Below, in pieces: positions 5,371 to 42,999 of a stretch of 45,332 bases of DNA. The translations under genes were made by a program, and so were the position numbers. This DNA is from a virus, in the IMG/VR virus record IMGVR_UViG_3300032285_001359, positions 1 to 45,332 of that record; one strand, given 5' to 3'. The notes beneath the pieces were generated by a model. That model was not told the DNA's origin, made no database searches, and saw only the letters and a list, made by a program, of their open reading frames with translations. Within the stretch, counting starts at the first letter, position 1, and every line of letters begins with the position of its first letter.

Positions 5371-6084
5371 ATGCCGTCTTTGACATTTGCCCAAGCAAAA
5401 TCATTGTTTGCCTCTTTTGTGTCTTCACAGGGGCCATCCGACCCAGAGGTCGGACGGGCTATCAATTTCGTAAACGAAAAATTTATTAATTCGGGTCAGT
5501 TTAAAGGAAATCGTTTTATTCATTCCTTTACTGTTCAACAAGACTCTGATGGTAATAATTATTTTGATACAGTACCTGGAATTGAATCTGTATTAAAAAT
5601 TCTAGCAATTGACCCAGATTATATGACTGGGGAGATTGGAGCGGTAATGGCTGACTGGTTCCCTTGGGATGAAGGAAGCCTTGGTTGGTTGCCCCCTGAC
5701 TATGTGGGGGATCTGCAAGTGATTCGTCAGGGGAATGTCCCCGCCAGTCCTCTGCCGAGCGGACTCACGAGCGACACGCAAAGATACAGGGTCTTGGGTA
5801 AGATTCCAGAGAACCGCACCATGTATTGTATCGTGCGGAGGGGGTATGTGCCGCTTGTCAATGACACGGATCTTTTAATCCCCTCCAGCCGTAACGCCTA
5901 TCGTTATGGCCTACAAGCCTACAACTACGAGAGCAAAGACGAATTGGAGAGGGCAAAGGTGTATTGGGATCAAGCATTTGCGGCTCTCAATGACGTAACG
6001 AACAACTTTGAGGATGGGGAGCTTGCCCAGATTCAGATTCAAACCAAGGCATTTGCCCCTGGCATTATGCAGAACCTCGTCTGA
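5371..6084 (+). CDS. Probable head-tail adaptor / tail tube structural protein
   Basis: This 237-residue protein starts MPSLTFAQAKSLFASFV after an AATAATT leader without Shine-Dalgarno. It has an alpha-helical N-terminus, a Trp/Pro-rich middle (about 88-125) and a C-terminal helix pair (ESKDELERAKVYWDQAF). It is first in a rightward block that continues with three probable ejection proteins and a tail protein, the place where podoviruses keep the adaptor or tubular protein (gp4/gp11-type). The role comes mainly from context and length, not from a diagnostic motif. Transcription probably continues from the upstream genes. Confidence 0.55.
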   Translation: MPSLTFAQAKSLFASFVSSQGPSDPEVGRAINFVNEKFINSGQFKGNRFIHSFTVQQDSDGNNYFDTVPGIESVLKILAIDPDYMTGEIGAVMADWFPWDEGSLGWLPPDYVGDLQVIRQGNVPASPLPSGLTSDTQRYRVLGKIPENRTMYCIVRRGYVPLVNDTDLLIPSSRNAYRYGLQAYNYESKDELERAKVYWDQAFAALNDVTNNFEDGELAQIQIQTKAFAPGIMQNLV

Positions 6085-16905: not shown

Positions 16906-17883
16906 ATGATTGTAGCAATCTCTTATCATCAAGGCGATCAGCCGCTCATGGTTCGTTGGGCCAAGCGAGTAAAGCAACTAGGCCCTTATCTCAACCACGA
17001 GATCATTGTCTCTCCTTGCCACGGAGCCTCCACGCAAGACATTAAGCTTCCGCTAGAGAATTGCTTTCGCAAAGTTACGATTGTCCCATCGGGACATACG
17101 GAGCGAGGGTGGCCTGTGAGTTGCAATCGCGCTTTCCAAAACATCTGCTGGCACTCCATGCTCACTACTCGTCAGCCGTTTCTCTTTATGGAGCCTGACG
17201 CTGTTCCTCTTTGCGAAGGCTGGATTGACGCAATTGAAGCAGAGTATCGGGCTTGTGGAAGTCCGTTCATGGGAGACCTTGTTGATTTATCCAAGTCGGA
17301 CGTAAGTGGTATTGACCACATGAGCGGCATTGCCGTTTATGATTGGAACCTATCCATCACAGCACCTCGCCTCTTCAACTGTAACAATGGCAAGGAAGAG
17401 TTTGCTTGGGATATTTTTGCCGCCTCCGACATTCTTCCCAAGATGCACCGCACTAATCTCATCCAGCACGACTGGGATAGATACAGGAGAGGAGATGTAG
17501 ATCCTTCTGCTGTGCGTGAAGGCGCAGTCATTTATCACCCAGACAAGCAAGGTGTATTGTTTAACGATGGTCTTGCTGGCCCTTTGAATAGTGTGCAGGG
17601 AGAGCCTGCAACGGGTGCGCCTGTGAGCGTTTCCTCATTTAAACACGAAGGGTCAGCCTCTATTTCCAATGAAGAAAAACCGCAAATACAATTTGAAGAA
17701 GCCCCGACAGATCAACAAGCCATCGTCCTTGAGCGGTTCAATTCAGTCCTTGTCTCTGCAAGAAGCGACTCCAAACTTAAACGACAAGTCAAACAATCCC
17801 TTATCCAGCACGGCTGGATCAAAGCCCCCAAAAAAGGAAAGCGTACTAGAAAAAAAGTTTCGCCTCCTGTGGGGGACGCTTAA
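16906..17883 (+). CDS. Glycosyltransferase-like protein, GT-A fold, 325 residues
   Basis: Residues 1-105 follow the GT-A pattern: an N-terminal strand (MIVAISYHQGD), a helix, a second strand (HEIIVSP), then PFLFMEPDAVPL (91-102), whose EPD occupies the DxD position. Residues about 110-225 contain a conserved-looking DWDRY and an acidic/aromatic acceptor region. The C-terminal 80 residues are a Lys/Gln-rich tail that overlaps the next gene in another frame for 215 bases. The sugar donor and acceptor are unknown. It is the second of three glycosyltransferase-type genes and does not resemble the other two closely. Confidence 0.7.
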   Translation: MIVAISYHQGDQPLMVRWAKRVKQLGPYLNHEIIVSPCHGASTQDIKLPLENCFRKVTIVPSGHTERGWPVSCNRAFQNICWHSMLTTRQPFLFMEPDAVPLCEGWIDAIEAEYRACGSPFMGDLVDLSKSDVSGIDHMSGIAVYDWNLSITAPRLFNCNNGKEEFAWDIFAASDILPKMHRTNLIQHDWDRYRRGDVDPSAVREGAVIYHPDKQGVLFNDGLAGPLNSVQGEPATGAPVSVSSFKHEGSASISNEEKPQIQFEEAPTDQQAIVLERFNSVLVSARSDSKLKRQVKQSLIQHGWIKAPKKGKRTRKKVSPPVGDA

Positions 17884-18160
17884 CGGGCCAGAGCTAGTTC
17901 AAGAACATCGCTTTCATCCTGTCCGTAAATGGCGGTATGATTTTGCTCATCTAGAGTCCAAGGTGGCTGTAGAGCTACAAGGGGGCATCTGGAGTGGCGG
18001 CAGGCATGGTCGCGGCTATGGAATCGTTGGAGATTACGACAAGATGAATGAGTCCCAGTTCTGCGGATGGGTAGTGATTCAGTTGTCTGCCAAACAGATC
18101 ACGATGGAGAATGTAGAAAAGATTGCTGAATTAATTAAGAGCAGATCATTGACAAAATAG
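17669..18160 (+). CDS. PD-(D/E)XK-type nuclease (Vsr/DUF559-like)
   Basis: Residues 57-163 carry the signature of Vsr/DUF559-like nucleases: a helix (LEKKFRLLW), then RYDFAH with Asp91, KVAVELQGG with Glu102 and Gln104, and a downstream GRHGRGYG and GDYDK. These form the metal-binding core of the PD-(D/E)XK fold. The first 56 residues are low complexity and are encoded entirely inside the end of the preceding gene in the +1 frame. ATG 17669 is the only ATG before the core, so either the overlap is real or initiation uses a non-ATG codon. A role in DNA processing, repair or homing is possible. Confidence 0.75.
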   Translation: MKKNRKYNLKKPRQINKPSSLSGSIQSLSLQEATPNLNDKSNNPLSSTAGSKPPKKESVLEKKFRLLWGTLNGPELVQEHRFHPVRKWRYDFAHLESKVAVELQGGIWSGGRHGRGYGIVGDYDKMNESQFCGWVVIQLSAKQITMENVEKIAELIKSRSLTK

Positions 18161-38740: not shown

Positions 38741-38938
38741 ATGAGAAGACCCCGACCATTCGGACAAACGCATTCATGTGAATGCGGCAAGGACACGGAG
38801 ATTGTAGTGTATCCCTACATCCCAGCCATAACCTCGCATCAATACGAGGACAATGAGGAAGCAGAGGGAGGCTACTGCGATCCAGAGGAATGCCCAGAAT
38901 GCGGATGCGGAATTGACTACGAGGACTACGCAGAATGA
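38741..38938 (+). CDS. Small cysteine-rich protein, 65 residues
   Basis: The product MRRPRPFGQTHSCECGKDTE... has four or five Cys in zinc-ribbon-like spacing (SCECGK near 12-17, then YCDPEECPECGCG near 45-57) and an acidic C-terminal end. It overlaps the Mom-like gene by four bases (ATGA), so the two are probably translated together and could be functionally linked. No family recognised. Confidence 0.6.
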   Translation: MRRPRPFGQTHSCECGKDTEIVVYPYIPAITSHQYEDNEEAEGGYCDPEECPECGCGIDYEDYAE

Positions 38939-39609
38939 ACTGGTCTGTGCATCAGATCACATTTCGAGATGCAGAGCCTTGGCTTTTGAAAAAGCATTAC
39001 GCCAAAAGGATTCCTCCAGTATCTTATGCCTTTGGCGCATTCTTTGATAAATCCTTGATCGGAATAGTTACATACGGAACTCCCGTTTCATCATCTCTTC
39101 GTGAGGGGGTTTGTGGAAAGGAGTATGCTGATTATGTGATTGAGCTTAATCGCCTGTGTTGTGAAAGCACTAAAAACCTAGCTGGGTTTTTAATATCAAA
39201 TTCATTAAAACTAATACCTCGACCAAAGATCGTTGTTAGTTTTGCTGATACTGCACAAGGCCATGTTGGATATGTTTATCAAGCAACCAACTTTGTTTAC
39301 ACGGGGTTGAGCGCAAAGAGAACAGATTGGAAAATCAAAGGCGAAGAGCATCTTCATGGAGCTACTGTAGCAGACAAATTCAGAGGAGTTGAAAACATGG
39401 CGCAAGCTCTCCGAGATAAATATGGAGATGACTTTTATTTAGAGGATAGGCCAAGAAAGCACAGATATATTTATTTTATTGGAACAAAAAAAGAAAAGAA
39501 AAAGATGAAGCAATCTCTTAAATATCAGATTGAAGAATACCCGAAGGGGGAATCGCAAAGATATAATGCTAGCGCAAAAATAAACACACAAATGCTACTA
39601 ATCAATTAA
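38935..39609 (+). CDS. mom: Mom-like DNA modification protein
   Basis: This 224-residue protein shows the layout of the Mom family: an N-terminal HYAKRIPPVSYAFGAFF (21-37), then IGIVTYGTP (42-50), YVIELNRLC (67-75), VVSFADTAQGHVGYVYQATN (100-119) and a downstream YTGLSAKRTDW. Mom of phage Mu is a GNAT-like enzyme that converts adenine to N6-methylcarbamoyl-adenine (shown for Mu) and blocks host restriction. The C-terminal 60 residues are Lys-rich. The assignment rests on motif recall; the substrate group in this phage is inference. Mu's transcription activator com was not recognised, although the adjacent Cys-rich 65-residue gene (38741) is Com-like in size. Confidence 0.85.
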   Translation: MNWSVHQITFRDAEPWLLKKHYAKRIPPVSYAFGAFFDKSLIGIVTYGTPVSSSLREGVCGKEYADYVIELNRLCCESTKNLAGFLISNSLKLIPRPKIVVSFADTAQGHVGYVYQATNFVYTGLSAKRTDWKIKGEEHLHGATVADKFRGVENMAQALRDKYGDDFYLEDRPRKHRYIYFIGTKKEKKKMKQSLKYQIEEYPKGESQRYNASAKINTQMLLIN

Positions 39610-41034: not shown

Positions 41035-42323
41035 GTCTTCCAGCCAATATTGACGCAGAGAAGGCATTCCTATCCTCTGCCCTCCAGAATCCATCCATCC
41101 TCGACATTCATGCCGATCACCTAAAGCCTGCTCTCTTCCATCATCCTGCTCATAAAAACCTGTTTAAGGGGCTTCTAGCCCTATGGAAAGAGGGCAAGTC
41201 GGTAGACTTGATTACCATCAGCGAGTGGTTGGAGGTCAATAATCTCATGGATGATTGCGGTGGCCCGTCAGAAGTCGCGGCGATATACTCTCATGTCAGC
41301 ACAAGCCACAACCATGAGGAGTATTTCAACATCATTCGTCATTATCACACGGCGCGTTTGGCTATTGCTGGCGCGGAGCGTATCATTGATTCAGCCCGTA
41401 ATCCTGTAGTCAACGGGGAGCTATCCGAGACTGTGCAGAAAGCCCTAGTAGCGATTGCGTCAGAAGCGGAGAGCGGAACCAAGATTGAGTCTATTGGGGA
41501 GGCTACTACCCGCCGTCTCAACGAGTATGAGGAGATGGTGAAGAACAAGGGAAAGCTCATGGGACTCACCTATGGCTTCCCCTCGCTAGACGAACACACG
41601 GGAGGCATGAGGCCTGGGCAACTGATCGTCATTGGCGCACCAACCAAGGGCGGCAAGACCGCTCTGGCTCTCAACATAGCCCAACGAACCGCCGATGCAG
41701 GGAACAACGTAGGAGTCTTCTCGCTTGAGATGAGTAGTGGGGAGATGGTGGATAGGCTTGTGGCCTCCCTCACGGGCGTGGACATATCCGTATTGTCCAA
41801 GAATCCAAGCAAGGAAGAGATGGGTAAGATCGCTTTCGGAGTGGGACAGGTGGGCAAGTTGCCGATCTGGATTCGGGATGAAAGCTCTATCAATCCGCTT
41901 CAAATCATGGCGGCGGCTCGACGCATGGTGGCGACACATGGCGTGAAGATGATTGTCTTTGACTACATCCAGCTTGCCATGCCTACCAATGCCAAGGACT
42001 CCCGTGAGAGGCAGGTGGCAGAAGTGAGTCGTTGCCTCAAGCTAGTAGCCAAGGAGCTAGGCATCACAATCATTGCCCTCTGTCAGCTTAACCGCAATGG
42101 AACAGCCCGTGAGTCTGATGCCATCCAACACGACTGCGATATGTTCTTGGTCATCCGCTACCAAGAGGCAGAGGAGGATAGCAAGAAAAAACAAGATTCT
42201 GACGAGTGCGGATACTGGCTTGACATTCGTCTCGCTAGGAATTGTAGTAGAACATCTTTCCCGCTATCCTTCCAGCCGCAATACCTGCGGTTTGAAGAAC
42301 GGGAGATAAAACAACACCAATGA
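41031..42323 (+). CDS. dnaB: DnaB-type replicative helicase
   Basis: The 430-residue protein has the DnaB N-terminal domain (about 1-110, NIDAEKAFLSSAL) and the RecA-like ATPase domain: Walker A GAPTKGGKT (202-210), the SLEMSSGEM motif (231-239), Walker B MIVFDYIQL (307-315), a LCQLNR segment and an RNCSRT finger-like region near the C-terminus. It unwinds DNA at the replication fork. No primase or polymerase gene was recognised, so it probably works with host enzymes. It overlaps the SSB-like gene (ATGA). Confidence 0.95.
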   Translation: MSLPANIDAEKAFLSSALQNPSILDIHADHLKPALFHHPAHKNLFKGLLALWKEGKSVDLITISEWLEVNNLMDDCGGPSEVAAIYSHVSTSHNHEEYFNIIRHYHTARLAIAGAERIIDSARNPVVNGELSETVQKALVAIASEAESGTKIESIGEATTRRLNEYEEMVKNKGKLMGLTYGFPSLDEHTGGMRPGQLIVIGAPTKGGKTALALNIAQRTADAGNNVGVFSLEMSSGEMVDRLVASLTGVDISVLSKNPSKEEMGKIAFGVGQVGKLPIWIRDESSINPLQIMAAARRMVATHGVKMIVFDYIQLAMPTNAKDSRERQVAEVSRCLKLVAKELGITIIALCQLNRNGTARESDAIQHDCDMFLVIRYQEAEEDSKKKQDSDECGYWLDIRLARNCSRTSFPLSFQPQYLRFEEREIKQHQ

Positions 42324-42577
42324 GCAACTACGACAACACCAATAGTGGCGCGGCATTTGAACGCGACAACCCGAACCCCAAGGCTCCCAAGTGGAGCGGC
42401 CCTCTCGATGTAGAGGGAAAGAAGTATGAGATCAGCATCTGGGAGAAGACCAGCAAGGCAGGAAGCAATTTCCTGTCCATCAAGGTCGGCCCTCCTCGTG
42501 AGAAAGGCGGGAACAAGAGCTTCACGCCGAAGCCCAAGCAGAACACATATTCCGACGATTCGGATATTGACTTCTAA
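42320..42577 (+). CDS. Small SSB-like/DUF736-type protein, 85 residues
   Basis: MSNYDNTNSGAAFERDNPNP opens a sequence that matches the small phage family of the YDNTNSG...G-x2-V-x-G-K-x-Y type. EKTSKAGSNFLSIKVGP is in the middle, and the C-terminus is acidic and ends in SDDSDIDF, similar to SSB tips. It may bind ssDNA or interact with the helicase that overlaps it. It is the last gene before the structured RNA and terminator. Confidence 0.7.
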   Translation: MSNYDNTNSGAAFERDNPNPKAPKWSGPLDVEGKKYEISIWEKTSKAGSNFLSIKVGPPREKGGNKSFTPKPKQNTYSDDSDIDF

Positions 42578-42580
42578 TTT

Positions 42581-42649
42581 TGCCGAGTAGAACGCAGGGA
42601 GATCCTGCGGCAAGGGGCTTGCTCTGTAGCTCCTTTGTTGATCACGGCA
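42581..42649 (+). ncRNA. Candidate structured RNA just upstream of a terminator
   Basis: Three stems fold in sequence: TGCCG/CGGCA closes the element (581-585 with 645-649, numbering after 42000), CGCAGG-gagat-CCTGCG forms a perfect hairpin (42593-42609), and GCAAG-ggg-CTTGC follows it without a gap (42610-42622). A three-way junction results, with a single-stranded 22-base stretch on the 3' side. It starts only four bases after the SSB-like gene stop and is followed at once by a terminator. It fits an sRNA or a 3' mRNA element; it does not fold as a tRNA. Confidence 0.5.
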
Positions 42650-42650
42650 G

Positions 42651-42681
42651 GGGGGAGGGGGAAACCCCTCCCTCTTTTTTT
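42651..42681 (+). terminator. Rho-independent terminator closing the replication block
   Basis: GGGAGGGG (42653-42660), a GAAA loop and CCCCTCCC (42665-42672) form a perfect 8-bp stem capped by a GNRA-type tetraloop, followed by TCTTTTTTT. It directly follows the candidate RNA and ends the helicase operon. Confidence 0.9.
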
Positions 42682-42999
42682 ATTGCAATCCATTTTGTAT
42701 TGCTTGATCATTCATTCGGAATCATTGCTGGTTGCATTGGAAATATCCGATGGCGGGTCGCTCCCGTAGGGCTGGAAACAGCCGCCAGAGATGAGTCCTA
42801 TACCCATGACCGCCTTCTCCCCTTGAGTGGCAGAAACAAGGAGGATCGGCACTTGGGTTTCTTCAAAGGTTCCTTGCCCCTGACAAGTCCCCAATCGGGA
42901 CTTCCTGCCAGATAGGGGGTGAGGTCATTTTTTTTATTGACTCGTTGCACGATTCTGAAAGCATGAGTCCCAGAGCATACAACCATGCTCCAAACAAAA
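42682..42999 (+). promoter_or_regulatory. Gap between terminator and early-type genes
   Basis: These 318 bases hold no supported gene. An open frame from TTG at 42580 to 42915 crosses the candidate RNA and the terminator hairpin, so it is unlikely to be translated. Near 42931 a T-run is followed by TTGACT (42937-42942) and an A-rich tract before ATG 43000, which could be a promoter for the 43.0-45.3 kb genes; no clear -10 is seen. Confidence 0.4.

Follow-up and report, generated by a model that had tools for sequence, protein, structure and literature searches.

A family of three-way-junction RNAs of about 70 nt in phages, with two copies per genome in one phage group

A family of phage RNAs of ~70 nt was identified that fold into a three-way junction, in which the junction and the loop of the P2 hairpin are conserved and the helices change in a compensatory manner. 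In the phage group of the window (the whole 45,332-nt stretch of IMG/VR virus record IMGVR_UViG_3300032285_001359 that was analysed), the RNA is present in two copies, one located behind SSB/DUF6321-like genes (copy 1) and the other inside a coding region upstream of a DUF559-like gene (copy 2). Since the fold recurs next to unrelated genes, and twice per genome in this group, it is evidently kept by selection. With a probability of about 0.5, the RNA is a cis-acting recognition element of mRNA, via which a trans factor would set the expression of adjacent genes at two operons. The features of both loci are listed in Table 1.

Table 1 Features of the two RNA copies and their flanking genes in the window
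Feature	Position	Strand	Basis
Copy 1, three-way-junction RNA	42581..42649	+	match to relative-built model R2; pair counts
P1, 5' strand TGCCG	42581..42585	+	partner is CGGCA, 42645-42649
P1, 3' strand CGGCA	42645..42649	+	sequence and fold
J1/2 and base of P2, AGTAGAA	42586..42592	+	18-row alignment
P2 hairpin	42593..42609	+	CGCAGG/CCTGCG, loop GAGAT; perfect pairing
P3 hairpin	42613..42634	+	fold and alignment; one-base bulge
J3/1, TTGTTGATCA	42635..42644	+	family consensus TTGTYGAWCA
Upstream SSB-like gene	42320..42577	+	phrog_18154, E 5e-9
Intrinsic terminator, GAAA loop, directly 3' of P1	42650..42682	+	sequence and terminator scan
Copy 2 of the RNA	17582..17650	+	R2 30.2 bits; R3 42.3 bits, E 2.6e-10 (filters off)
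ORF containing copy 2, glycosyltransferase-like (authors' reading, no Pfam match)	16906..17883	+	
Next ORF, other frame, DUF559-like	17669..18160	+	Pfam DUF559, E 0.0013, just below cut-off

The sequence-only reading had placed a candidate structured RNA joined to a terminator at 42581-42681, and these coordinates agree with the sequence. Copy 1 begins 3 nt past the SSB-like gene and abuts the GAAA-capped terminator. Perfect pairing had been claimed for all three stems, which holds for the closing stem (P1) and the first hairpin (P2) but not for the second (P3) with its bulge. The 8-bp terminator stem with a GNRA cap is present as described, formed by GGGAGGGG (42653-42660) and CCCCTCCC (42665-42672) and followed by seven T (42675-42681); up to 12 pairs were counted by a mechanical scan. 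An intrinsic terminator, defined by a GC-rich hairpin with a run of T behind it, is confined to 42650-42682. The window element has the features that define the family, namely the P1-P2-P3 junction, the invariant GAGA(N) loop of P2 (42599-42603), the J1/2 U and G that are invariant across the aligned members (U42588 and G42590) and a J3/1 ending in ACA. G42587, likewise in J1/2, co-varies with U42642.

On folding, this structure is the energy minimum. Junction and terminator together have an energy z-score of -4.16 (0 of 200 shuffles equally stable); without the terminator, the score is -2.31 (5 of 200), and it spans +0.34 to -3.69 in 14 sequences of relatives. In the relatives, folding energy is weak evidence and covariation is strong evidence.

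For this site, at the end of an operon, a structured RNA had been suggested, with covariation over related phages as a check. Pairing is indeed kept in the relatives: the helices covary, and homologous sites retain their pairs. Eighteen rows were aligned by hand. Of the 19 pairs, 16 have compensatory double changes in this alignment, in which 96.4% of cells are paired and 77 cells carry double changes. None of these three values is reached in any of 1000 tree-based null alignments, the means of which are 51.5% paired cells, 7.5 double-change pairs and 14.5 double-change cells. This count omits near-duplicates (L009, L144 and copy 2 of G001), a member found later (G430) and identical records, as well as the letters of the P3 loop and of inserts. 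P1 has compensatory changes at 5/5 pairs. Taken by itself, P3 is significant in its cells but not in its number of double-change pairs, which 109 of 1000 nulls reach. When the window is excluded, 95.1% of cells pair in 13 distinct relatives and 13/19 pairs show double changes; the covariation score is 0.440, with 0.130 (sd 0.024) obtained from shuffles and no more than 0.125 when the partners are slid. An alignment of 16 sequences gave 95.3% paired cells, 16 pairs and a score of 0.539, and is biased towards the model to which it was fitted. A per-pair test similar to R-scape on 14 sequences yielded no pair below E 0.05 at columns at least 4 apart (best E 0.29); the two pairs that it flagged were not counted, as they are adjacent only because the P3 loop was removed. 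The covariation is therefore to be read as significant in aggregate, not pair by pair. On the sense strand of the 18 rows, G-U occupies 19 of 335 cells and A-C only 2, a bias that a folded sense RNA would produce.

Model R2, built from the 13 relatives with the window left out, scores copy 1 of the window at 48.4 bits (E about 1e-13). As a specificity control, it was run over 98 unrelated loci (820 kb), where the best match has at most 15.8 bits. The training set of model R3 included, among others, copy 1 of the window and copy 2 of G002. Besides U and G of J1/2, the GAGA loop and the terminal A-C-A pattern of J3/1 are invariant. The N-X pair at the base of P2 is C-G, G-C or A-U, with A opposite G in two rows, and is absent on both sides together in copy 2 and in L321; the purine contact next to it alternates between G-A and A-G. 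Most rows have A-A at junction positions x and y; G-U is found in copy 1 of the window, L143 and copy 2 of G009, and C-A once, an apparent tertiary covariation.

Relatives of copy 1 were gathered via the DnaB helicase encoded two genes upstream, which gave 23 IMG/VR loci. Three of them (L002, L011, L018) stop short of the site, as inferred from locus length, and the element is present in 19 of the remaining 20. In L015, the junction is absent and a short P1-like stem persists, followed by a terminator (5780-5820), which suggests that the junction was deleted naturally. Since the terminator is kept there without the junction, it looks like a separate part placed beside the RNA. Pattern scans added members outside the DnaB gene context (L171/L176, L304, which is a near copy of L143, and L321/L322), and another (L300) was reached through the helicase of L176. 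The gene contexts of L171/L176, L300 and L321/L322 are unrelated; besides that of the window, two phage groups with different gene neighbourhoods carry the fold. P1 of L176 and L300 is lengthened to ~12-13 positions and reaches into the stop codon of the ORF upstream, and in L321/L322 the element is located behind a DUF2589 gene in a terminase operon. No single gene adjoins the element across all phages. At all phage sites examined, it is oriented in sense to the flanking genes. An ORF between SSB and the element in L001 (5350-6080) presumably encodes an HNH-type homing endonuclease.

The terminator directly follows copy 1 in the window, L001, L005, L010, L012 and L016; its stem letters differ among these six, and the GAAA loop is found in each. 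A contact of this tetraloop with the junction is conceivable. A different structured terminator follows in L003 and L013. At most copy-1 sites, the terminator and a new promoter-like stretch come next, not a start codon. In L143-L147, a terminator is lacking, and a Zn-ribbon gene starts 10-15 nt past the core. Given both placements, before a terminator in most phages and before a start codon in L143-L147, the RNA is more than a part of a terminator.

Several other structured stretches are found downstream in the window. Element B (42718-42798, GGAATCATTGCTGG ...) has three hairpins, one of them GAAA-capped. Its closing stem is longer in L001, and in L003 and L013 a shorter element B, followed by T7, replaces the first terminator. 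A foldable stretch (42803-42945) has a run of eight T at its end, closely followed by a promoter-like TTGAC box. At 42937-42965, TTGAC is followed by TCTGAAA at a fixed distance, upstream of the 42973-42990 hairpin in the relatives; this may be a phage promoter type that is unlisted by the sigma-70 scan. The hairpin (GAGCAT-ACAACC-ATGCTC) is located in the leader of a 94-aa gene. Stem and loop are present in 8 loci including the window, with T/ACAACC as loop and a compensatory stem change in L016, and the hairpin is possibly another conserved mRNA element. No tRNA genes were found in the window.

Copy 2 was recognised via a relative. The first whole-record search gave one extra match, within a coding region of G002, and filter-free scoring of the homologous stretch of the window exposed copy 2. 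With filters off, R3 scores 65.9 and 42.3 bits in the window, then 9.7 bits, and the only sites are 42581 and 17582. Exactly two copies each are found in G000, G001, G002, G005, G009 and G015. The gene around copy 2 is present in just these 6 of 19 records, and copy 2 is kept in all of them (6/6); G012 and G013 gave no second copy with filters off. The next ORF overlaps the gene that contains copy 2; from the RNA core to the start codon of this ORF, the distance is 15 nt in G009 and 18 nt in the five other records. P1 of copy 2 extends to 17575-17657 (12 bp) in the window. In this extended form (11-12 bp), GCTGGCCCTTTG pairs with CGAAGGGTCAGC in the window and GCTGGAGAGGG with CCTTCTCCAGC in G002. 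Most inner P1 pairs are changed on both sides between the two records, and the encoded peptides also differ, in a protein that is 71% identical overall. As P1 is rewritten in a compensatory manner while the peptide changes, selection seems to act on the RNA and not on the linker. Behind copy 2, two ORFs overlap by ~215 nt in different frames (17669-17883), and both are conserved in the relatives.

In bacteria, a single match was found among 392 genomes of Planctomycetota (L377, 1501-1562, minus strand). It is located ~150 nt downstream of a tRNA-Arg(TCT) gene, and the genes around it on the chromosome appear to be ordinary host genes. Within the order of this genome, 1 of 17 genomes matches, namely the same one. 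The match was accepted as probable because the N-X pair is missing as in copy 2 and P1 extends outwards. Bacteroidota gave 0/395 genomes. The filters of the bacterial scans were strict, and weak members may escape them. In 387 Verrucomicrobiota genomes, three weak matches to R2 and one to R3 were obtained, none of which was counted after alignment: L319 and L320 are without the core letters and L318 is doubtful. A pattern scan of genome contigs gave no convincing member among the matches listed, mostly a recurrent Pelagibacteraceae match, which does not show absence from bacteria.

The sequence-only reading had matched the element to no class, and this is borne out in that none of the Rfam 15 families matches it. 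The whole window gave 0 matches at the gathering threshold, and three members searched in E-value mode gave chance matches below threshold only. The sub-threshold matches to RsmZ, mir-207, STnc400 and similar families were rejected as terminator or composition matches. A blastn search of named phages with the window stretch and three members returned nothing that covers the element. The full-text literature on structured phage RNAs contained no obvious description, in a search that was not exhaustive and leaves absence from print unproven. The ~70-nt three-way-junction family is not described in the sources searched; its kind, a structured cis-RNA of phages, is already known.

Packaging RNA of the phi29 type is a phage RNA with a three-way junction as well. 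The present RNA differs from it in its two copies per genome, its mRNA-like contexts and the lack of an Rfam match. The STAXI motif is presented as a tandemly repeated pseudoknot near SSB and antirestriction genes (PMC2864571). Like STAXI, the RNA is a structured element of mobile DNA located close to SSB genes; unlike its two or three tandem pseudoknot units, it forms a single three-way junction, and STAXI gave no match in Rfam scans up to E 5. The L17 downstream element is a structured RNA behind a gene, for which a role as 3'-UTR regulator was proposed (PMC2864571). A position behind a gene is shared with it and with other 3'-UTR RNAs, but the structure and the organisms differ, and the second copy of the present RNA is situated within a coding region, ahead of a start codon. 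In the com/mom system of phage Mu, a structure in phage mRNA is read by a small Zn-finger protein (PMC6483171). The layout at 38741-39609 of the window is similar: a 65-aa Zn-ribbon ORF (38741-38935) overlaps the start of a Mom-family gene. However, the Zn-ribbon ORF has no Pfam match to Com, the element is not beside mom, and R3 located no copy in the mom translation start region of the window. Mom is found in 4 of 19 records and the Zn-ribbon in 13 of 19.

Several other explanations of the RNA were weighed. A chance fold next to an ordinary terminator would suit the modest z-score of the junction alone, and can practically be dismissed, being refuted by covariation in several lineages, by detection with R2 and R3 and by the second copies. 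A DNA-level signal, e.g. a single-strand hairpin acting in replication, recombination or integration, is highly improbable: DnaB and SSB genes are nearby in the window's group and the sole bacterial match lies close to a tRNA gene, but the excess of G-U over A-C on the sense strand, the constant sense orientation to flanking phage genes and the conservation of loops and junction letters argue against it. Unlikely, too, is a stable sRNA derived from the 3' UTR, or a module that protects mRNA 3' ends, to which the terminator directly after most copy-1 sites and the P1 of L300, itself leading into a T tract, would point. A 3' regulatory element, as the initial reading had it, describes copy 1, which mostly precedes a terminator, but not copy 2 of the window or L143-L147, which have no terminator and lie directly upstream of start codons. 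Invariant junction letters would, moreover, be needless for passive end protection.

In its conserved three-way-junction core with free helices, the RNA is generally similar to small ribozymes and riboswitch aptamers, from which it is set apart by the lack of a family match and of shared target genes. A metabolite riboswitch aptamer with two expression platforms, a terminator and a start-codon context, is unlikely. An aptamer-like core is present at two loci per genome, one by a terminator and one by a start codon, and both the conserved junction and the apparent x-y covariation would fit. Yet the terminator and P1 have no letters in common, no conserved antiterminator or alternative pairing was seen by eye in the terminator-bearing members, no pathway is common to the neighbouring genes, and in L015 a terminator occurs without an aptamer. 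We consider it quite unlikely that the RNA is a new class of small self-cleaving ribozyme that separates or trims phage mRNAs. Small ribozyme classes are of comparable size, combine a fixed junction with free helices, occur in phages and are placed between cistrons or at 3' ends; the RNA resembles them in all these respects and in its independence of neighbouring genes. However, copy 2 lies in a coding region in 6/6 records, and cleavage, if constitutive, would sever the upstream mRNA there; no Rfam ribozyme matches. The junction strands of the hammerhead ribozyme carry conserved CUGANGA and GAAA. These core letters are absent here, and the junction strands differ from them in all 18 rows.

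One core at two loci with different downstream signals fits a recognition element in mRNA better than a terminator accessory, and the former is the reading we prefer. We infer that the function resides in the mRNA and that the junction would be recognised at both operons by a trans factor, either a ligand or, more likely, a protein. At copy 2 and in L143-L147, control would probably be exerted at translation initiation of the next gene, while the form with a terminator may act at the mRNA 3' end or on read-through. The Shine-Dalgarno sequence as a target is uninformative, since a motif of this type precedes only 5 of 53 chosen window ORFs. A frameshift stimulator was rejected, as copy 1 sits after a stop codon. 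A weak candidate for the factor is the small Zn-ribbon protein conserved in the phage group. It is kept in 13 of 14 DnaB-group records, and the gene that starts just after the element in L143-L147 codes for a relative of the mom-overlapping window ORF. The one DnaB-group record without it is L015, a partial record of 20 kb that is also without the junction. No homologue was found in five element-bearing records of other phage groups, and the protein thus cannot be a general partner.

Conserved RNAs with a fixed junction are few in DNA phages and are often riboswitches, ribozymes or specific protein sites. Tentatively, the two sites may form a regulon based on a new phage RNA class, operated by a trans factor (a small protein or a metabolite) or by the RNA's own chemistry, in which selection on the fold would override the linker sequence at one site. 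A defined set of short RNAs is now testable for binding, cleavage and translational control, and the family suggests a phage regulon that annotation would overlook.
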